The notes under the pieces were generated by a model. It was given only the letters and a program-made list of their open reading frames with translations. It searched no databases and was not told the origin of the DNA. Positions 6,201 through 59,700 of a stretch of DNA of 64,000 nt are shown here, piece after piece. This DNA comes from Branchiostoma floridae (Eukaryota > Chordata > Leptocardii > Amphioxiformes > Branchiostomatidae): assembly GCF_000003815.2 (NCBI RefSeq), contig NC_049990.1, positions 18,134,768-18,198,767 of the forward strand, written 5' to 3'. The number at the start of each line of letters is the position of its first letter. The first letter of the stretch is position 1. The translations under genes were made by a program, and so were the position numbers.

Positions 6201-9200
6201 CAACAGTAAACTCACAGCAAAGGCCACAAGGCAACTCCAGGACCCCCTAGTCATAATGACTGGCAACCTTCCGCCCTGGTTGGTGGAGATAGGCAAAGCC
6301 TGGTGAGTCATGCTTGAACTTGTCCTAAAATTATCATAAACTTCCTTGCACTTTTGACCAATTGCTGATGTCACGTATGCACAAGATCAGGTGTTGATAA
6401 GATCACTCACAGGAGTTTACTTTCTGAAGTAATTGGTCATCAGTATTGATTCTGAAGAAGGCGACAGTTGTCATTGAAAATTTGATCCATGTATACCTTT
6501 GTGCTGGAAAACAGTTAAGCATTGTACTTTGTCCTAAAATTGTTGGAATATCGGAAAAAATTTTATCAGTGTCACACAGTCCACGAGCTTTGGTCCGTAT
6601 TTGTTAATTGCCTTGCACCAAATTTGAAAATCGTCTGAGACTCAAGCACATTTTTCCCCAAAAAATCTACCCCAACACATTGGATAGATCTTGGGACTTG
6701 GCCGATGTCTAAAGTTTGTACGATGATCCTATGAACCCTGTGTGTATAACTGCCAAAAATGTCATTTAGAGCTTTGTTTCCAGTGACATCCATCACTTTT
6801 TCAGTGTCACTGGTTTGTCCTCGCTAAAGAAATCAGGTAGTACATATGGAAAAACAGTTATGTCAAAATCACTAACTCACCATGTTTATATGTAAATGTC
6901 ACTCTTCGAACAGTTTGTCTTATCTCCTGCTGTTGTTTCCCCAGCCCTTTCTTACTCCCATTCGACACGCGGCAGACCCTTTTCTACATGACGTCGTTTG
7001 ACCGAGACCGTGCTATGCAGAAGCTGCAGGACAGCTCTCCCGAGGTCACCAGTACGGACTCCACAGATAGCAGAGTGGCACCAAGACTAGATAGGAGAAA
7101 GGTACGTCATGGACAATGCTTTATGTTTGCTGTGTGCTTCATTGTTCTTGATAAATATGTCATAAAGTGCTGCGTAACTGCACACCGGACTGGAACTGCT
7201 TTAAAAAAACATAACGTCAAGAATCATTTCCAGACCCACAAAAAGAAAACTTGCTTATATTATCCATTTTGTTTTTAACCATCTGAAACCTTCCGTGGAT
7301 CATGGAATTTGCACTGGAGAAAGTTGACATCATTGCCATTTTTCTGTTTTTAAATTGCATGTGACATTTCTGCCAACATGCCACTTAACATGAATTTTTT
7401 TCTATCACACATATGCCATTGGTTATATCACACATATGCCATGGTTTTGTCCTAGGAGTTCTCAGAACTATAAACACATTATACCGGACTGATATAAGTC
7501 TGAACCTGAACCTCTGGATCTAAATCCAGACCTAAACTTGACTTTAAGTGCAAGACATCCGACTGCTAGGATGTTTAACAGATGTGAAGTCTACTCTTTG
7601 AAGACTATATCTAATACTTCCCATTCATTCTTCCAGAGAACAGTTTCTAGAGAAGACTTGTTGAAGCAGGCTGAGTCAGTCATGAATGACCTTGGCAACT
7701 CCAGGGCCATGTTGGAGATACAGTATGAAAATGAGGTGGGGAAAACTTTTTCTCAAAGCATCTTTTTTGCTTGTTGTTTAGATTTTGTCAAGATTTTGAT
7801 AAAGCCAAGCAGACATTGCGTATCTATGATAAGTGTTCTATTGATCTACAGGATGTACAATCCATATCAGCATGTTCTGTTATCTGTGTTAATCGCTCAT
7901 ATCTGTCCATGTTGTCCCTGTCAGGTTGGTACAGGGTTGGGGCCGACCCTGGAGTTCTATGCACTGGTGTCCAGGGAGGTGCAGAGAGCCGATCTGGACC
8001 TGTGGAGAGGAGAGGCTGTGCCACTCCCAGACTCTAAAGGTAAACTAGCAACTTTACCAGACTGGTACAGTACTTTTGTACACTTCTGTTTTTGGCGGTG
8101 CCTCAGGGGCAGAGGCAGTCTTGTACATATGTCTTTTTTGGCAATGCCTCAGGGGCAGAGGCATTCTTGTACATAAATCTGTCTTTTTTGGCAATGCCTC
8201 AGGGGCAGAGGCAATCTTGTACATGTATCTGTCTTTTTTGGCAATGTGTCAGGGGCAGAGACATTGTTGTACATATGTCTGTGGTGTATGGAAGGAATTC
8301 AAACAAAATTTGCAAGTACTACCAAGCACAGACACAGAACACAGGAAAATGGGTGTTGGATTTGACTGTATTCTTCATGGATAGATAATTTGACTGTACT
8401 CTATTTGAGGCCTCTTGCTGTTTTTTTGCTGGCTTTTCATGTTGCTATGTATAAAATCCTCTTAATGTGTTCTTGCATTGCTCGTTTGTCTTTTCTGCAG
8501 GAAACCAAGATGGAACTTTGTATGTGCATTCCTCATTGGGACTCTTCCCACAGCCCTATGGCAGAACAGCCAAGCTTGGTCACGTGACCAAGGCCAAGAT
8601 CAAGTTTAGATTCATAGGGAAGTTCATGGCCAAGGCCTTGATGGACTCCAGAATGGTGAGCTACATCCACAACTTTAATGATATTACAATTGCCAGTGTC
8701 TAGAGATGGTAATGTAGAGGGACTGGTGCATGTGGAAAACCTCCTCCCTCTATTATATACAATGTGATGGACTACCAAAAAAGTGTGGATTCTACTATAG
8801 ATATAATCTGTGCTTGTTATGAACTTAGGTAAAGTGTGTCTTTTGTGGGCCAACAGTTGTTTTATTTACATGCTTTCCGTATCATTATTTCAGGTTGACT
8901 TCCCACTGAGTCTGCCCTTCTACAAGTGGGTGCTAGGGCAGGAGGCATCCCTTTCTGTCACAGATATACAGGTCAGCTTTGGGTTTATGTCATGCAGAAA
9001 AAATGCTTATGGTTTTGAGTACGAAACTGCCCAGCCACTGAGAAGACCCACTCTCTTAGATGAAATAGGAATAGATAGATAAAATCAATGCCTAACTGTC
9101 CCGTTTATTAATACCTTTTTATGCACCTTTTGAGAGATAGGTCTGAACCTAAGGCAAAAACTTCTTTTCCTACCTCCAGTATCTGGACCCTGTCGTTGCC

Positions 9201-47700: not shown

Positions 47701-50700
47701 CATGTGCAACACACCCAGCCACGCGCCAGTGCTGTCTGTTGCGCAATATAATTATTTGTAGTCCGTGAAATAACGTTACATCTGACAGCCAGCATTCTGT
47801 AACACTACTAGTACTGGAAGAAATCTTATGCAGATTTTATATTCTGATTTTAACATGATACTTACTTGTCCTCATTTTCATGTATTTGTTAAAGATTTGT
47901 GGTTAATACTAGTATTGAACAAACAAACTGTTCTGCGCGAGTGTTGCACATCTCAACAAAAGTTCTCACGCTGTGGGCAGTTGATTGGCAGTCGGTTTCT
48001 TTGACAACAGGCCGCCGGCGCCAAGCAGTCTAGGTCCAAATCCAATCATCTTAATAACCAATCAGCGTTTGATAAATGTAATGATGTACTCTGTGATTGG
48101 TCACCGGAGAAAATACAAAAGTTACAGAGTATTAGCGCACGTGACGTTGTTTTGTGATATTGTTAGGCGCCCGTGTCGTCTGGCAAGTTTCTTCCCTAGC
48201 TGCTAACAATTTACTATTAAAGTTTCCCCATTTATCCAAGTTAAAAAAGCGGTGCGCGGTAAATAAGTGAAGAATCCAAAACTATACACTTTATTTCTTA
48301 TTTCCAAAATTTCTTTTGTTTCAAAAAGACAAAATTTGTGGCAGAAAAGGGGCCGCAATATTGTTGTCAAGCGTCGATCGAGTCGGCTGTGCACTGGCGT
48401 TGGCCTCCGTGGCACAAGGTGCGGCACGCCCCCCTCCCAAGACGGACCGTCGATCGCAGCGCCCAGCACGTTGGAACGTCTTTCTGGCTACTAGTTCAAG
48501 GCTACCCCGGCACTGATCACTGCCAAAGAGGCAACAGATCGTCCTCCTTCGAGTAATGTATAACGTTCTTGGTCTATTTAAAAATAAATCCAGCCAAAGA
48601 TTTCACGCCGAAAACGGGGTTACCTGAGGTCGCAGGAAACAAACGCACGCTCGTGGAAAATGACAGCACGGCCTTGTAAAACCCCACCGATTCGTGAGTG
48701 TGATGTCGTCGTTATTTTATCGTCTCGGAAAACTATTTGATGAGGGAGGGCGCAACATCGATCGCACGAGGTCGACATTCTTTTATTCAATGACGGAAGA
48801 AATTGGCAGAATTTTTCCATGGGCTGACGAACTGGCTAGAGCCCTGTTGCGAAGCATAAAAAATCCAAAAATTTTCGTGTCTGGAGAAATTATCCCCGGG
48901 CCAGATCACTGACGGCTGATTCCCCGTGCTGAGAGAGGGCGGTTGTCGATTACTGAATTACGGGAGTAAAAGAGGCAACCGACATCCAATCTCAAGCGCA
49001 TGATTTTCCTCTCAAATTGCGGGAAATTGTGTTTTAGAGGGTTTGAAAATCCAAATTTTACCGGGGGAGCATGCCCCCGGACCCCCTAGAATGCGAGCGC
49101 CTGCGGCGATCGTCTCGCGCCTCCGGCGCTCAATACCCCCCTCAGAAATATTTGGACGCATACTTTCAAGAACCTGGCGGGGACGCTGGTTAAGAGGGAG
49201 GGACGCCCGCCGTGATGTGTTGTAAGATTGTATCTCCCATGGCCAGTAGGTATTTGGTATTGTAAGTGGGAGGGACGCACGTCGTGGTGTGTTGTAAGAT
49301 CGTGTCTCCCATGACCAGTAGGTATTTGGTATGGTAAGGGGGAGGGACACCCGCCGTGGGGTGTTGTCAGATCATATCTCCCATGGCCAGTAGGTATTTG
49401 GTATTGTAAGGGGGAGGGACGCCCGCCGTGAGGTGTTGTCAGATCGTATCTCCCATGGCCAGTAGGTATTTGGTATTGTAAGGGGGAGGGACGCCCGCCG
49501 TGAGGTGTTGTCAGATCGTATCTCCCATGGCCAGTAGGTATTTGGTATTGTAAGGGGGAGGGACGCCCGCCGTGAGGTGTTGTCAGATCGTATCTCCCAT
49601 GGCCAGTAGGTATTTGGTATTGTAAGGGGGAGGGACGCACGTCGTGGTGTGTTAAGGGTTCCCTTCCCAGGAATCTCCCATGGCCAGTAGGTGTTTGGTA
49701 ATGTGGGGAGGGATGCGTGCCGTGGTGTGTTGTAAGATCTGATCTCCCATGGCCAGTAGGTCTTTGGTATTGTAAGGGGGAGGGATGCTGTACGGGTTCC
49801 CTCCCCTTGAATCTCCCACGGCCAATAAGTGTTTGGCAATGCTCGATCCAAAGGGGCTTGGAAAGGTGTGTTTTGGGCTCCCTCCCCAGCTGAGACCACC
49901 TGAGACCAGTTGGTGTAAGCCTTTCTATATGTACCATGACGGTACCTGTTTCCCCTAGCCACTCCATATGTTTGAAGAAGCCTGTCAACTGACTGGTTAC
50001 TGTATGTAGCAACACGACAGCACCTGTCTCCCCTAGCCACTCCATATGTTTGAAGAAGCCTGTCAACTGATTGGTTACTGTATGTAGCAACACGACAGCA
50101 CCTGTCTCCCCTAGCCACTCCATATGTTTGAAGAAGCCTGTCAACTGACTGCTTACTGTATGAAGTAGCCTTTCTGTATGTAGCAACACGATGGTACCTG
50201 TCTCCCCTAGCCACTCCATATGTTTGAACAAGCCTGTCAACTGACTGCTTACTGTATGAAGAAGCCTTTCTATATGTGGCAACACGACGGTACCTGTCTC
50301 CCCTAGCCACTTCATATGTTTGAAGAAGCCTGCCAGCTGACTGGTTACTGTACGAAGAAGCAACATTGCTGTCCAGATATGTTTGTGGGTTTTGTCTAGT
50401 CTTTGTGACTGTAGGAAGGGACGGCTCTGATACAGCACTGTAGAAGCGAATGTGTTCATCATCATCATCGCTGTCTGACTCTAGGGTGTTTGGGAGACCA
50501 GGCAGGGGCCTCTGTGCAGCAGCTAAATGATCGGGAATATCCCAGTAGGTGTTTGGGAGACCAGGCAGGGGCCTCTGTGCAGCAGCTACAAGATCTGGAA
50601 TCTCCCAGTAGGTGTTTGGTAGACCAGGCAGGGGCCTCTGTGCAGCAGCTACAAGATCTGGAATCTCCCAGTAGGTGTTTGGTAGACCAGGCAGAGGCCT

Positions 50701-53700
50701 CTGTGCAGCAGCTAAATGATCAGAAATCTCCCAGTAGGTGTTTGGGAGACCAGGCAGAGTCCTCTGTGCAGCAGCTAAATGATCGGGAATATCCCAGTAG
50801 GTGTGTACTGTACTAGTGTCTGAGCTCCCATGATAAATAGACTGAACAGTTTGGAGGTTTGCAGGCAATGACCTACAAGAGACAATACCTCCAGGAGGTG
50901 TCTGGAACGAATGGTCTCGTGGGCTCTTGTTTCTTAACTTTTGTAGGCATCTGCTCAGAAGCAACCCTGCAAAGAGTAAGACTAACAAAATCCCCCCTGT
51001 AGAGACAACAACTGGGATGACAAGAGTCTCTGGTGCTGGGGTATTCTGCTGAGGATTCGCCTGCATCGTAGACATTGATGCCATCATCGTCAAAGACCTG
51101 TGCTCTTCCGTATTTGGGGGCCTGGTTTTAGGTTTGGATGTTCGAAAGCTTGCTTGATCTGTCGTTGTGTCACCGTTATATACAGGACATTCTTTGTGGA
51201 CCTTCAAAGAGAATTTAGGAATGTTGATGAAAACTGGTTGGCCATATTTAGAAAGCAGAATGCAGGTTAACTGCTGTGTATTGGTAGTGGGTGTATGGAA
51301 ACTGCTGTGATTCTGACTGGCTTCTGAATGTGTGGTGCTGACTGTCCGTGTATCTGGTGTGTTGTCAACCATTATGGCAACATCGGCCTGGCTTGTGTTC
51401 CCCACTCCCATAGAAACCAGCTGTAAGATGGAGTTATCAGGCTTCAAGGCTACCGTAATGCCCAGGTTGTGTTCCCACACCTGCTTGCACTTCCCCTCGT
51501 AATAACGTTCCATTTTCTCTGGATGGCCATGAGCCGCAAAGACAACAAAAGGTGGCTGAGTGGTGATGCTTCTCTCAGAACTATCCCCAAAATGCATGAA
51601 ACATACACTGGGCCCTTGGTTCTTCTGTGTGGGGCGAGGTACTGTCTTCACAGAATCAAACTTCCATCGAAGTTCGAGAGATGTCTCACTTCTTCGTTTG
51701 TCCTTTTTGACACAGAGGAAGAAGTTGGGCACCTCAACAGATATGACTTGTCTGTATTGGATAATTCCATCATGCAAGGCAAGGCTCCATCCCATTCTAT
51801 GTGGCATTTCATCATGTACTGTTGCCAACTTGTCACCACTGACATAGAAGGTTGACAGTTCCTGCTGTTGCCATATCCCTGATGCCCCCCAATCCAGACA
51901 AGACATAGCGCTTCCCTGCATGTAGAACTCGTCAATTTTCATGCCTTCGAATATGGTCTGGGGAAGGCTCTTGATGCTATTGCCCCCCAAGTTCAGGTAT
52001 GTCAGGTACCGGTTTGGGCCATGGAGCCAGGCAGAGTCTACAACCCGTAACTTGTTGTTTTGTAAGTTCAGCCATCTAAGCGTTGTCATGTTCCTGAAGC
52101 ACCCTGGGTCAATCTGTTCTATCCTGTTATTGGACAAGGTCAGGAAAGTGAGCTGCAAGCCAGTGAACCAACTCTCTTTGACATGTGTCAACCTGTTGAA
52201 ATCCAAGCCCAACCTAGATAGCCTCCTAAACCCACTGAAGGTGTTTTCCCCCACTTCTTCAATCTCATCATCTATGAGAACTAAATACGACAGACTTATT
52301 CTAGAAGTAGAATAGTGTAAGGCTGACAGTTTCCTTGCTGATAGAACACCAATTGGATTGCGTCTTAATGCAAAAGCATGCATTTGCATCTGAGGCAAGC
52401 AAGATTCAGCAGGAATATTACTGACAGGAACAGCACTACCTTCCTTACCATTACATAAGATGCATACGCTTTTGGCATTGTCGCGCCCAAAAGGTATGAT
52501 CATGGTGTCATGCACACAATTGGACCAAGCATCTCTGTTACAATGGGGCCAGCAGAGGCTAGCTGAAGCTGTACATGCTGTCAAAAGTACCAAATAATAT
52601 AGCATGATCACAGAAGCACCCATTCTAAAAGACATTATGATTAAGATACATCTCTTTGTAATCATAGATATCACTATTATCACTAAATATCAGGTGTCTG
52701 TATCAATGGTGGGGATGTCCCGATAGCTCAACTGGTAACAGTCTTACAGTTGAGCTCCTGGTTCCAATGAGTTAGTAACTGGTAGACTCGGTTCAATCCT
52801 GGAAAAGGCATCTCAGTTGGGGCTGCACCCATCTTTTGGAAGGGGCACAAAATGAGGGGTATGGGTCGGAGAAGTTGCCTCAAGCAAGTTAAGGAGAAGG
52901 GCTGGGAAACCCTGCCTGCAAAAATATACCCTGCTACTGAAACAGCAAGGAAACTTGCTGCCCTGTGTGCCACTAGGCAGTACAAGGGTCCGAACAAACT
53001 ATCACTTGGCACTAACCAGTGTTTGTCTGTCTGTCTAGTACTGTAATGTAACATCACAATTTTTTAAAACAGAGACATACCTTTCGGTAGAAAACATTGA
53101 AGATCCCCTTCCAGTCAGAAAACGTGGCTCCTCCCAATGCAGCTGTGCCTGTTCTGGCCTTGGTGTATGCAAGGTCTGACTTTTAATGATCACTGTGACA
53201 CTGTGCGTTTTATTTTAATATGGATTAGGCACATAGAAATATGTGTGGTGTCACAGAGGAATGCCAAATTCTCCAGGCCTCGGAAAACTCTTCTTCCTGA
53301 CAGACTCATTTCCAGACATCAATTTTCAGCCATACCATGAAATGATGAGATGCTGCCTCATGTTTTATTGATGGACAGGATATCATTTGAAAGCCGAGAA
53401 GTAAATTTTGGAACAATTTCATTTTTCCATTGTGTGTTTTATACTGATAATGGACATGTATTTATTTTGAACGAACCTTGTTCCGACCAAAAAAATACTG
53501 TTGTTTTGGTTGATGAAATCCAATGTTATTTAAGTTAAGATAGCCAGTGCAGAAAGAGGTTCATGGTGTGTTTTGGGTTCCCTCTCCAGGGAATCAGGGA
53601 CAAACGCATGCTGTGATGTTTAGGTCCCCACCCCCGCCCCTGGAATCTCCCATGGCCAATAGGTGTTCGGTAATGTGGGGAGGGACGCACGCCATGCTTT

Positions 53701-56700
53701 TTGGGTTCCCTTCCCTGGAATCTCCCATGGCCAGTAGGTATTTGGTATTGAAAGGGGGAGGGACGCACGCCGTTGAGTATTGTAAGATCGTATCTCCCAT
53801 GGCCAGTAGGTGTTTGGTATTGTAAGGGGGAGGGACGCACGCCGTGGTGTGTTGTCAAATCGTATCTCCCATGGCCAGTAGGTATTTGGTATGGTAAGGG
53901 GGAGGGACGCCCGCCGTGGGGTGTCATAAGATCGTATCTCCCATGGCCAGTAGGTGTTTGGTATTGTAAGGGGGAGGGATGCTGTTTGGGTTCCCTCCCC
54001 TTGAATCTCCAATGGCCAAGAAGTGTTCGGCAATGCTAGATCCAAAGGAGCTTGGAAAGGTGTGTTTTGGGCTCCCTCCACAGCTGAGACTACCTGAGAC
54101 CAGTTGGTGTAAGCCTTTCTATATGCAGCAACACGATGGTACCTGTCTCCCAGAGCCACTCTATATATTGGAAGAAGCCTGCCAGCTGACTGGTTACTGT
54201 ATGAAGTAGCACCATTGCTTTCTAGATATGTTTGTTGATTTTGCCTAGTCTTTGTGATTGTAGGAAGGGACGGCTCTGCTACAGCACTGTAGAAGTGAAT
54301 GTGTTCATCATCATCATCACTGTCTGACTCTAGGGTGTGGGGGAGACTAGGCAGGGGCCTCTGAGCAGCAGCTAAATGATCTGGAATCTCCCAGTAAGTG
54401 TTTGGGAGACCAGGAAGGGGCCTCTGAGCAGCAGCTAAATGATCAGGAATCTCCCAATAAGTGTGTGGGACAGAAAGCAGATGGTCCTGAGCAGCAGACA
54501 CAGTACTAGTGTCTGAGCTTCCATAGGAAATAGACTGAACAGTTTGGAGGTTTGCAGGCAATGACCTACAGGAGACAATAGCTGGAGGTGTCTGGACTGA
54601 ATTGTCTTGTGGGATCTTGTGGAGGCAATTCCTCCGAATCAACACTGCAAGGAGTAAGAATAACAGAATTCCCCCTGTCGAGACAACAACTGGGATGACA
54701 AGAGTCTCAGGTGCTGATGTGTTCTGCTGAGGATTCGCCTGCATCGTAGACATTGATGCCATCATCGTCTGGATACTCTGGAACTGGTTTGTCATGGTCA
54801 AAGACCTGTGCTCTTCTGTAGTTGGGCTCCTGGTTTGAGGTTTGGATGTTGGAAAGCTTGCTTGATCTGTTGTCGTGTCACCTTTATACACAGGACATTC
54901 TTTGTGGGCCTTCAAAGAGATTTTAGGAATGTTGAAAGAAATTGTTCCACCATATTTGGAAAGCAGAATGCAGGTTAGCTGCTGTGTATTGGTAGTGGGT
55001 GTATGGAAACTGCTGTGATTCTGACTGGCTTCTGAATGTGTGGTGCTGACTGTCTGTGTATCTGGTGTGTTGTCAACCATTATGGCAACATCTGCCTGGC
55101 TTGTGTTCCCCACTCCCATAGAAACCAGCTGTAAGATAGAGTTATCAGGCTTCAAGGCTACTGTAATGCCCAGGTTGTGTTCCCACACCTGCTTGCACTT
55201 CCCTTCGTAATAACGTTCCATTTTCTGTGGGTGGCCATGAATCATAAAGACAACAAAAGGTGGCTGGATGGTGATGTTTCTCACAGAACTATCCACAAAA
55301 TGCATGAAACATATACTGGGCCCTTGGTGCTTCTGTGTGGGGCGAGGTACTTTCCTCACAGAATCAAACTTCCATCGAAGTTCTAGAGGTGTCTTACTTC
55401 TTCGATTGTCCTTTTTGACACAGAAGAAGAAGTTGGGCACCTCGACAGATATGACTTGTCTGGATTGGATAAACCCATCATGCAAGGCAAGGCTCCATCC
55501 CATTCTATGTGGCATTTCATCATGTACTGTTGCCAACCTGTCACCACTGACATAGAAGGTTGACAGCTCCTGCTGTTGCCATATGCCTGATGCCCCCCAA
55601 TCCAGACAAGACATAGCACTTCCCTGCATGCTGAACTTGTCGATTTGCATCTCATTGAAAATACCTTGAGGAAGGTTTTTGATATTATTTGCCCCTAAGA
55701 ATAGCATATTGACCATGCTTGTACCAAGGAACCAGGCAGGGTCTACAACCCGCAACATGTTGTTTTCGAGGTTCAGCACCAACAGGTTAGGGAGACCTGC
55801 GAAGCACTCTTGGTCAATCTGTGCTATTCTGTTATTGGACAGGCTCAGCACACCGAGGTGCACTAAGCCAGTGAACCAACTATGCTTGACATGTGTCAGC
55901 CTGTTGAAATCTAGGCCCAACTCGTGCAGATGAGAAAATGCAGGCTCATTGTGATCATTGTCAACCTCATGAGCAAAGAAGATGTGATCCTCCATGTCTG
56001 TGATTTCAGCATCAATCAGAAACAAAGACGACATAGAATTATCAAAGTCAAAAGACTCCAGTTTCTGCACTGATAGAAAACCAAATGGATGGCCTCTTAT
56101 CGCAAATTCTTTTTGCATGTGCAATACACAGTCTGAATCAGGGGCAGAAGTCATCCTAACAGTTGTTACATTCCTTCCTAATTCCTGACACAAAATGCAG
56201 GGGTCCTCTTTTTCTGCAGTAAATGTTGGGACTTTTGTCTTCTGAATACAGTTGGACCAGGGAACACTGGAACAACCAGGGAAGCAGCATTTAGCTGGGG
56301 CTATAGTGGCAGTTACGATCACCAAGACCAGGCAAAATTGCTTGATCTTTGGAGTATCCTTACTAACAGCCAATAGATTCATCTTTCTGACAAGACAAGG
56401 ATAGGATTTCATATCATGAGCCCAACTATGGCTTCTTACAGTGCTTGCCTTTCTGTTTGTGGGTATGATTTTCCCACTTTGTTACAGAAAGAATTTCATC
56501 CATTCCCCTTTGACAGGCAAAATCATGACATAGTCATCAACTGCACTACAAATCTTTTTAAAAGATGAAGCACTAAGTCTTGTACTTACTACATCAGACA
56601 AAATGCTCTCTCCACTTCTGACAAAATACAATCACCACTTCTGACAAAATGTACTGACTCTCACTACTTCTAACAGAATACAATCACTGATTCACTTATG

Positions 56701-59700
56701 ACAAAATGAATCACTACTTCTAACAGAATTACACACAAACAATTGCTAATTCTTGACAAAATGCACTCACTTCTTACTGACAACATGCATTTGTCAGCAT
56801 CTCTGAGTTCCAGCAAAATGCTTTTACTAAAAACTTCTGACCAAATACACACACTATCTCTGATAAAATGTACTCACTACTTCTAACAGAATCACACACA
56901 AACAATTGCTAATTCTGACAAAATTTACTCAATGCTTACTGATAAAATGCACTTGTCAGTATTTCTGAGTTCTGACAAAATATTTTCACTACCAGATACT
57001 AATGAGCAAATGCACTCACTTCTTTTGAAAAAAAAATACTTCTTCTGACAAGATGCACTCACTACAATTTTCCCCTCAAAATACAATCATCACTTCTGGC
57101 AAAATGTACTCACTACTTACTGACAAGATGCACTCAGTATTTCAGAGGTCTGCCAAAATGCTTTCTCTACAACTGACCAAATGCACTCACTATCTCTGAA
57201 AAAATGTACTCATAACTTCTGACAAGATGCACTTACAAGTACTACAATTTGCTGCTCAAAGTACAATCACCACTTCTGACAAATTGTGCTCATAACTTCT
57301 AACAGAATACAATGTTGTTATCACTCATTTTGAAAAAAAAGTACTCAGTACTTACTGACAAAATGCACTTGTCAGTATTTCTGAGTTCTGACAGAATGCT
57401 TTCACTACCAGATGCTGATGAGCAAATGCACTCACTTCTTTTGAAAAAAAATACTCACTACTTCTGACAAGATGCACTCACTACAATTTTCCCCTCAAAA
57501 TACAATCACCATTTCTGACAAAATTTACTCACTACTTCTACAATCACTTAGTCTGACAAAATGTACTTATTACTTACAGACAAAATGCACTTCAGAGTAT
57601 TTCAGAGTTCTGCCAAAATGCTTTCTCTACAACTGACCAAATGCACTCACTATCTCTGAAAAATTGTACTCACTACCTCTGACAAGATGCACTCAAAACA
57701 ATTTTCCCCTCCACATACAATCACCACTTCTGACAGAATGTACTCACTACTTTTAACAGAATAACACTCAAACATTTGCTTATTCTGACAAAATATACTC
57801 ACTACTTACAGGCAAAATGCTCTTGTCAGTATTTCTGAGTTATGACAAAATGCTTTCATCATTATTACTAAAAATGCGCCCAGTATCACTATCACTATAA
57901 AAATTTACTCAGTACTGACAAAATACACTCACTACAATTCGCCACTTAACATGCAATTGTCACCTCTGACAAAATACACTCAGTACTTCTGAGTTATAAC
58001 AAAATGTCTTCACTACTAGATACTAGTGACCAAATGTACTCACTACATGTACTTCTGAAAAAATGTACTCACTACTTCTGACAAGATGCACTCAATGTCT
58101 ACAATTTTCCCATCAAAATACATTCAGCACTTCTGCCAAAATCTTCTACTTCCTACAAAATGAGATCACTACTTCTGACCAATTTATGCACTCACTATCT
58201 CTGAAAAAATTTACTTCCTACCTCTGACAAGATGCACTCACTACAATTTTCCCCTCAAAAAACAATCACCACAGTCACTTCTGAAAAAACATGCACACTA
58301 CAATGTACTTCTAACAGAGTACAATCACTGACAAAATGTACTCGGTACTTACTGACAAAATGCACTCAGTATTTCTCAGTTCTGACAAAATGCTTTCACT
58401 ACCAGATACTAATGACCAAATGCACTCACATCTTTTGAAAAAAATGTACTCACTAAATCTGACAGAATACAATCACTTAGTCTGACAAAATGTACTTGCT
58501 ACTGACTGACTAAATGCTCTCAGTATTTCTGATTCTGACAAAATGCTTTCACTGGTACTCCCCAAATGCACTCACTACTTCTGAAAAAGATGTACCCTTT
58601 TTGACAAAATGTATTCACCCCCATTCTCCTCTCAAAATGGGAATAGTTCAAAGGAAATTTCCTGGAGGGGGGGGGGTGCCTCCAGACACCCTTAGATTTC
58701 TCACATCACTGGCACCCAATGCAAAGCTTCACTTTGTGTACCAAAATTGAGAACTAACAAATTAGAGCTAGCAAAATACCCTTACTTGCCTGAGAGTTCA
58801 AATGTTGTGCATCAGAATCAGTCGGATGCTCGTGGACTGAACACTCTTCTCTCCCTCACCTGCAGTAAAGATGCTCTTAACATGTGTCTCATCCCTGTAC
58901 ATCAGTGCCTGACCATACTGCAGTATGATGCGTTGGGAGATATGGCTGTATTTTGTGTAAATGTGTTATATAAGGGACACAGAAATATGCAATTAAGAAA
59001 AAGATATCAATTCCCCAAGGCTGTGGGGTACTCTTCTTCCTGATACTAGTAGTCAGACTAATTTCCATTTGCCACTGGTCATCTGATGATGAATTAAATA
59101 TTTTTTTGTGAAATGGCCAAGCTAGTAACACACAGTAACGTTACTTTACTATAATCATTAAAAGAATAAGAATCGTATGTAAAGAAAGAAATTAAAAAAG
59201 CTGAGTGTTAAAATAACCTCCTTGGTCAACAAACGATGTCCTGTTTGAAGGTGAAAGCGTTGTATATATAAGATAAACGTCTAAAATTAGCAAAAAGAAA
59301 AAAGAATATATAAAATAAGTCCCTCACATTGGACAAGAACTTTCGTTCTTCAGCTTCATATACATGTAGATGGTAGCATTAATGACAGCATAGATAATTG
59401 AGGTACTGGCATCTGCATTACGTAATGGTGACTTTTATGCTATATAAATTAAATGCTTTAGCCTATGTCACAGTAACAACACAGGCACCATTTGCACAGA
59501 AGGGTGTACATGTACAGAAAAGTAGTGGCCACCATGAGCAGATGCTCGCCGGAATAAAAACACACTCCACAGTTCAATTGTTGTCCATTTCAATCCATGA
59601 GTATTTACACTATTAAGTTACATATTCTTAGAATGTATCGTATACATTGTAAAAAAGTGAAGGCAGGAATGGCAGAGTGAATGAAAAGCGTAGATTCACC

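Follow-up and report, generated by a model that had tools for sequence, protein, structure and literature searches.

The 64,000-nucleotide stretch of the Branchiostoma floridae genome analysed here (contig NC_049990.1, positions 18,134,768 to 18,198,767 of the forward strand; hereafter the window) carries on its minus strand two sister leucine-rich repeat (LRR) receptor genes, whose long cytoplasmic tails contain arrays of in-frame tandem repeats. Short linear motifs in these tails are kept across a large gene family and the spacers between them drift, a result that stands even if our guess at the binding partners is wrong. As to the partners, we put the chances at about even that the tails serve as multivalent docking strips for SH3 and SH2 domains of the Src-family type, joined by a distal array of tyrosines and serines where one is present.

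Both minus-strand open reading frames (ORFs) were confirmed as real and encode single-pass receptors with long repeat tails. Each encodes, in order, a signal-peptide-like start, LRRs, a second ectodomain segment, a Thr/Ser-rich stalk, one membrane helix and the repeat tail. An earlier, sequence-only reading of the window had already proposed a signal peptide, LRRs, a stalk, one membrane helix and a tandem-repeat tail for both proteins, and the ORFs, Pfam, hydropathy and Tandem Repeats Finder all agree with it. The genes and the blocks of their tails are:

49372..52623 (about), minus strand: gene 1, single-ORF LRR receptor; start methionine uncertain, stop codon included
53620..56412, minus strand: gene 2, single-ORF LRR receptor, sister of gene 1; start at 56412 or 56382, stop codon included
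50488..50805, minus strand: gene 1 block 1, five 21-residue units YW[ED]I..D..AAAQR[PT]LPGLP (Tandem Repeats Finder and profile)
54337..54465, minus strand: gene 2 block 1, two units (Tandem Repeats Finder and profile)
49918..50361, minus strand: gene 1 block 2, five copies; array found in no other ORF read
54112..54210, minus strand: gene 2 equivalent of block 2, one diverged copy (profile)
49375..49839, minus strand: gene 1 block 3, RRxSLP / PNTYWPWEI units
53623..54033, minus strand: gene 2 block 3 units
49191..49371, minus strand: further gene 1 block 3 remnants, in frame, behind the stop

The tail arrays are genuine tandem repeats. Tandem Repeats Finder returned 63-bp units at 50485-50804 and 54335-54470, 78/96-bp units within 49944-50361, and 72-bp units at 49191-49785 and 53720-53979. 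Read in frame, gene 1 contains five Y.[ED]I, four RPLP..P, four RR.S and seven YWPWE[IV] motifs; the corresponding counts in gene 2 are two, two, three and five. The stop codon of gene 1 is a TGA (49374..49372, minus strand) at a place where sister units have CGA, a single C-to-T step, and remnants of the array units go on in frame behind it. The repeat is also open in a second frame, at 49086-50480; an IL11 match of this alternative-frame ORF lay under the curated cut-off and was taken as chance in repeats.

Selection on the tail motifs

The window genes, which the sequence-only reading took for a pair, are members of a large, dispersed family. A search of the genome (513,431,437 bases in 431 contigs) with the second ectodomain segment of gene 1 plus an abridged tail gave 191 matches, merged by hand into 73 places (the 73 candidates scored of 442) spread over 15 large and three small contigs. 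Searches with the block 3 and block 1 consensus sequences added about 18 places by hand count, and all counts of family places are lower bounds. We read 48 of the 73 places and kept 47 ORFs from 46 loci for analysis, of which the 43 with a clear membrane helix supplied the tail counts. The set excludes two copies of gene 1 (L009 and L015), ORFs in alternative frames, and both L014 and one frame of L019, which have runs of X. It also lacks L031, which is a genuine member yet absent from the family-wide statistics (the 47-ORF and 43-tail sets).

The membrane-proximal block 1 has the 21-residue consensus Y-x-E-I-P-D-x-x-A-x-A-Q-R-P-L-P-x-L-P. Its profile found 139 units in 46 of the 47 ORFs, the exception being the ectodomain half of a split locus (L035), and the tyrosine is present in 129 of the 139 units (alignment gaps not counted), followed at +1 by Ser, Trp, Ala or Cys. 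For block 3, with the consensus ...RRxSLP...LPNTYWPWEI, the profile found 325 units in 45 of the 47 ORFs; 306 of 312 aligned units have the tyrosine (two have Phe) and 265 of 295 the serine. At three loci (L044, L046 and L048) many units read TYVQCDI or TYMPCEI instead of TYWPWEI; the persistence of the tyrosine despite the replacement of W, P and W points to the tyrosine itself. RRxS occurs in 186 and RxxSxP in 205 of 284 block 3 units, forms that match a site for protein kinase A or another basophilic kinase and a candidate 14-3-3 mode I site, and RxxS[LVF][PHT] also lies close to the membrane in 27 of the 43 tails.

These motifs were far more frequent than in 200 composition shuffles of the 43 family tails. 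Y.[ED]I was observed 120 times against 3.0 in shuffles, RPLP..P 73 times against 0.2, the general class I form [RK]..P..P 103 times against 29.6, RR.S 183 times against 11.3, and R..S.P 244 times against 16.6. The tails thereby conserve the form of a putative Src-family SH2 ligand, Y-x-E-I, and that of a putative class I SH3 ligand, [RK]xxPxxP. Two other adaptor arrays suggested by the window pair were rejected: a Grb2 pYxN array (YSNQ and YTNW), since YxN stood near shuffle level (42 vs 33.3), and an array of pYxxP, the Crk SH2 form (YNTP and YDTP), since YxxP was below it (36 vs 89.2). The immunoreceptor tyrosine-based activation motif (ITAM), two YxxI/L motifs 6-12 residues apart, was judged for block 1 only, where units are 21 residues apart with 17 residues between motifs; the sequence-only reading had been right that this is no standard ITAM.

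Strong purifying selection is centred on the motif cores, and the spacers drift. We compared nonsynonymous with synonymous differences (pN/pS) between genes in 14 clusters, with positions grouped and 100 bootstraps over clusters (intervals in brackets). In block 1, pN/pS was 0.055 (0.02-0.10) for the Y,EIPD group, 0.049 (0.02-0.10) for RPLP..P and 0.044 (0-0.10) for the two spacer alanines; besides Tyr and Ile, this constraint covers Glu +2, Pro +4 and Asp +5. Block 3 gave 0.067 (0.04-0.10) for PNTY, 0.25 (0.15-0.35) for RRxSLP and 0.36 (0.18-0.56) for WPWEI. The spacers reached 0.77 (0.67-0.88) in block 3 and 0.68 (0.57-0.79) in block 1. Among 26 overlapping close pairs, 20 to 26 of them usable per region, the median ratio of nonsynonymous to synonymous rates (w) was 0.35 from block 1 to the linker and 0.39 in block 3, compared with 0.55 in the LRRs, 0.48 in the second ectodomain segment, and 0.54 in the helix and juxtamembrane region.

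The proposal that the tails combine SH3 ligands with tyrosine motifs is partly supported by these results. It was right in kind for block 1, where the class I SH3-type ligand next to a YxEI tyrosine is under strong purifying selection family-wide. It was wrong in detail for block 3: the RRxS and tyrosine cores are selected, but the tyrosine motif is not YxxI, as residue +3 in TYWPWEI is Trp. The idea of block 2 as a conserved array found no support; the block 2 profile, built from 4 units, matched five times in gene 1, once in gene 2 and in none of the other 45 ORFs (2/47 ORFs). A Ka/Ks ratio near 1 across the repeats had been named in advance as telling against a signalling role; the motif cores of blocks 1 and 3 are well below that value, and w for block 2 in the window pair is about 1.1 over 31 codons.

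Candidate partners of the tail units

Src-family-type docking is the best reading of block 1 because selection falls on exactly these residues, which alternate in one unit. RPLPxLP is a class I ligand close to the optimum for the Src SH3 domain, which prefers RPLPPLP, and the Src SH2 ligand pYEEIP has a proline at +4, as block 1 does. FAK and p130Cas contain Src-docking segments in which a class I PxxP near a YxxI/V tyrosine allows joint SH3 and SH2 docking; these cytosolic proteins have one PxxP and one tyrosine with a longer spacer, whereas the window genes encode alternating units on a transmembrane receptor. On LAT, nephrin and CD3 zeta, several tyrosines of a membrane protein cluster adaptors (CD3 zeta using ITAMs), but these are not tandem arrays alternating tyrosine with class I PxxP. 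A passage of PMC7337045 gives pYEEI as the best Src SH2 sequence, with Ile +3 filling the specificity pocket, and block 1 shares its Tyr, Glu +2 and Ile +3. The block 1 consensus differs in having Ser, Trp, Ala or Cys rather than Glu at +1, in a conserved Asp +5, and in its repetition on a receptor tail.

We propose that Src-family-type kinases dock on the membrane-proximal unit YxEIPD..AxAQRPLPxLP: its class I PxxP would bind the SH3 domain, and its tyrosine, after phosphorylation, would act as a pYEEIP-like SH2 ligand. When receptors cluster, a docked kinase would phosphorylate tyrosines nearby, and capture through SH2 would render the reaction processive. Where present, the distal RRxSLP...PNTYWPWEI units may add tyrosine sites for a putative reader, and a basophilic Ser/Thr kinase, perhaps with 14-3-3, could gate this array. 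The serine core of block 3 keeps Arg -3 and Pro +2, as in the 14-3-3 mode I motif, RSXpSXP according to a passage of PMC6770128. The number of units changes through tandem duplication and through stops or frameshifts, and docking capacity would therefore differ among paralogs. According to PMC8211107, gut and gill of B. belcheri express an Lck, and this kinase phosphorylates the tail of the LRR receptor BbLcLRR, so such a kinase would be at hand.

Several points weigh against this proposal. Two residues separate the PxxP from the next tyrosine, which makes it hard for a single kinase to engage both in the same unit. The pattern fits 114 of the 202 tyrosines between membrane and linker, in a regular-expression count that undercounts a few adjacent ones, and there are degenerate distal units without the Tyr or without EI. 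L034 and L031 have no block 3 in frame, and unit motifs lie behind the stop in 17 of the 46 ORFs with a closed 3' end. On the side of method, the profiles were seeded on intact units and hence favour intact units, and the position groups were set after per-position values had been seen, though they match the motifs singled out in the sequence-only reading.

The alternative that survives best is a trafficking tail, in which YxEI would be a YxxPhi signal for clathrin adaptors and PxxP would recruit endocytic SH3 proteins, leading to uptake and not to kinase signalling; we consider it unlikely. Y-x-E-I does fit YxxPhi, but Glu +2, Pro +4 and Asp +5 are constrained beyond what YxxPhi demands, and in block 3 the tyrosine is followed by WPW, which is not YxxPhi. 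In its favour, an amphioxus LRR protein found with Grb2 promotes phagocytosis, according to passages of PMC10199209. FrLRR, the amphioxus LRR protein linked in that source to the SH2/SH3 adaptor Grb2, differs from the window genes in having a folate-receptor domain and a predicted GPI anchor, and thus no such tail.

A second alternative, likewise unlikely and ranking behind trafficking, is that SH2 phosphatases or other SH2 readers bind the tyrosines of inhibitory receptors and Src-family kinases only phosphorylate them. A hydrophobic residue at +3 suits several SH2 classes, but this account leaves the conserved PxxP unexplained. It also finds little of the expected motif: the immunoreceptor tyrosine-based inhibition motif (ITIM; [SIVL]xYxx[ILV]) is absent from both window tails and below shuffles in the 43 tails (14 vs 32.6). 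The related switch motif, TxYxx[VI], occurs once in the 43 tails. The model for such a receptor is BbLcLRR, which is phosphorylated by Lck and recruits SHIP1 and, less, SHP1/2 in the passages of PMC8211107 that describe it. Like the window proteins it has an LRR ectodomain, one membrane helix and several tail tyrosines; its own features are a length of 699 residues, WSC and LRRCT domains, and the ITIM-like DDYATV, HDYSEV and HDYDDP. By that description, the window genes lack those domains and tyrosine contexts and carry arrays instead.

It is improbable that the tails are phosphorylation-free scaffolds in which aromatic (YW, WPW) and Arg stickers drive clustering or cytoskeletal binding. Aromatic and Arg residues are indeed many and regularly spaced, but the L044/L046/L048 group dispenses with most of the Trp and keeps Tyr, the near absence of Phe shows that Tyr itself is fixed and not aromaticity, and the Ser is kept as well. 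Least probable of all is that the repeats are coding minisatellites that serve no motif function and stay similar through gene conversion. In favour of this reading, unit number is highly variable, the arrays tolerate stops and frameshifts, and gene 1 alone has the block 2 array; against it, in blocks 1 and 3 synonymous sites have diverged where the residue is fixed (block 3 Tyr codon, pN 0.008 and pS 1.0 over the 14 clusters) and spacers of the same units drift. Homogenisation alone is insufficient because it would have frozen the synonymous sites too. The minisatellite reading is refuted for blocks 1 and 3, unless profile bias far exceeds that seen.

A literature search found no description of these tails among the papers listed, and five tail motif strings were likewise unmatched in the papers searched. 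The LRR passages of PMC2575513 and PMC5787515 do not describe such tails, and 'LRR' and 'leucine-rich' are absent from the main text of the lancelet pangenome paper (PMC12373286) as far as it was available.

It is possible, though we lean against it, that a basal chordate repertoire of about ninety gene places, some unread or broken, signals not via ITAM, ITIM or TIR but via Src-type SH3/SH2 docking units in tandem, which in most members are joined by a distal Tyr/Ser array. Output would then be set by repeat number, and different tail segments would have been independently arrayed in different genes. If docking is the right reading, a single genome offers a repeated SH3/SH2 docking module in many natural lengths on related receptors, and the scaling of clustering or signal output with the number of docking units becomes directly testable. 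It would also represent a receptor-proximal tyrosine-kinase route in a basal chordate, unlike vertebrate ITAM and ITIM tails.

Architecture and evolution of the receptors

The remaining features of the two window genes are:

51922..52284, minus strand: gene 1 LRR region, approximate (Pfam LRR_8)
55630..55992, minus strand: gene 2 LRR region, approximate (Pfam LRR_8)
51196..51921, minus strand: gene 1 second ectodomain segment, without Pfam or PDB relative beyond LRR edges
54904..55629, minus strand: gene 2 second ectodomain segment, 216 of 242 residues identical to gene 1
50962..51024, minus strand: gene 1 membrane helix (hydropathy maximum)
54637..54699, minus strand: gene 2 membrane helix (hydropathy maximum)

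With a signal peptide, LRRs and one membrane helix, both proteins are LRR single-pass receptors. Further in-frame Met codons lie just upstream of the approximate start of gene 1 at 52623. Pfam matched LRR models above cut-offs in the two proteins (LRR_8, E 3.8e-39 and 5.6e-21). No TIR, WSC or LRRCT domain was found in either at E up to 1, and the Toll-like receptor class was rejected on the missing TIR domain. The sequence-only reading had suggested searching the tail units against Pfam; the tail of neither window protein matches any family there, nor did a tail search against PDB give a match. AlphaFold2 models of the two window sequences had a mean predicted local distance difference test score of 36, with only part of the LRRs at 60-79.

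The second ectodomain segment is common to the family, with conserved Cys and Trp. As a single sequence it had no match in PDB; a family profile matched only LRR edges among the best 60 of 160 matches, and Pfam searches in 19 members gave mostly LRR edges and weak matches in single members.

Complete members read have a single frame from signal peptide through tail, and 38 of 39 ORFs with a closed 5' end and a clear helix have a signal-like start. Four loci (L027, L035, L036 and L037) are broken or gapped. This architecture holds for the ORFs read; another ectodomain is possible at the approximately 18 extra places and the 25 of 73 places left unread. Open frames at the extra places, from the block 1 consensus search, run from 344 to 5559 codons, the longest being a block 1 match at C262:33442-33906 whose frame possibly includes unread letters. 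The full-length L031 has two block 1 units and an acidic linker, and block 3 is absent.

The tail arrays change readily. In some members block 3 is absent, displaced or truncated: in L011 and L020 part of the array is in another frame, and in L034 the units lie out of frame downstream of the stop. Degenerate distal block 1 units (YEGMHD, YQKIPD, YWKTPN) were missed by the profile. In block 2 the string TYGVARGDRYHRV has a single exact occurrence, and 2 of the five gene 1 copies have Cys in place of the second Tyr. By eye, private threefold arrays were also seen of a different stretch in L006 and of a linker stretch in L019, as if tail segments repeatedly become arrays.

The window pair is 90% identical in the second ectodomain segment and 52% in the LRR part. 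This gap of 0.38 is clearly the widest of all pairs drawn from 38 genes that share >70% identity in that segment, the next being 0.12, and synonymous divergence (dS) reaches 0.73-0.80 over the N-terminal and LRR parts against 0.11 in the second segment. Because the second segment is so much more alike than the LRR part, the pattern is most simply explained by recent gene conversion downstream of the LRRs. Family-wide, the three parts evolve together, with correlations of 0.86-0.91 over 703 pairs. As to the immune role suggested in the sequence-only reading, LRR concave-face sites, where an immune receptor would be expected to show diversifying selection, give no easy support: they show no general excess of amino acid change in the five of eight close-paralog groups that gave a ratio (0.41, 0.67, 0.42, 0.29 and 3.46); the 3.46 belongs to the window pair and comes from 16 codons, too few to weigh, and the three other groups had no synonymous change at these positions.

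At the left of the window, the ORF stretch 7493-8173 on the plus strand matches the E3 ubiquitin ligase TRIP12 (E 2.8e-24, ORF residues 144-184), which places an exon of a TRIP12-like gene there. Just upstream of gene 2, a degenerate tandem repeat of about 23 bp (AAATGCACTCAC...) is clustered at 56597-58244.

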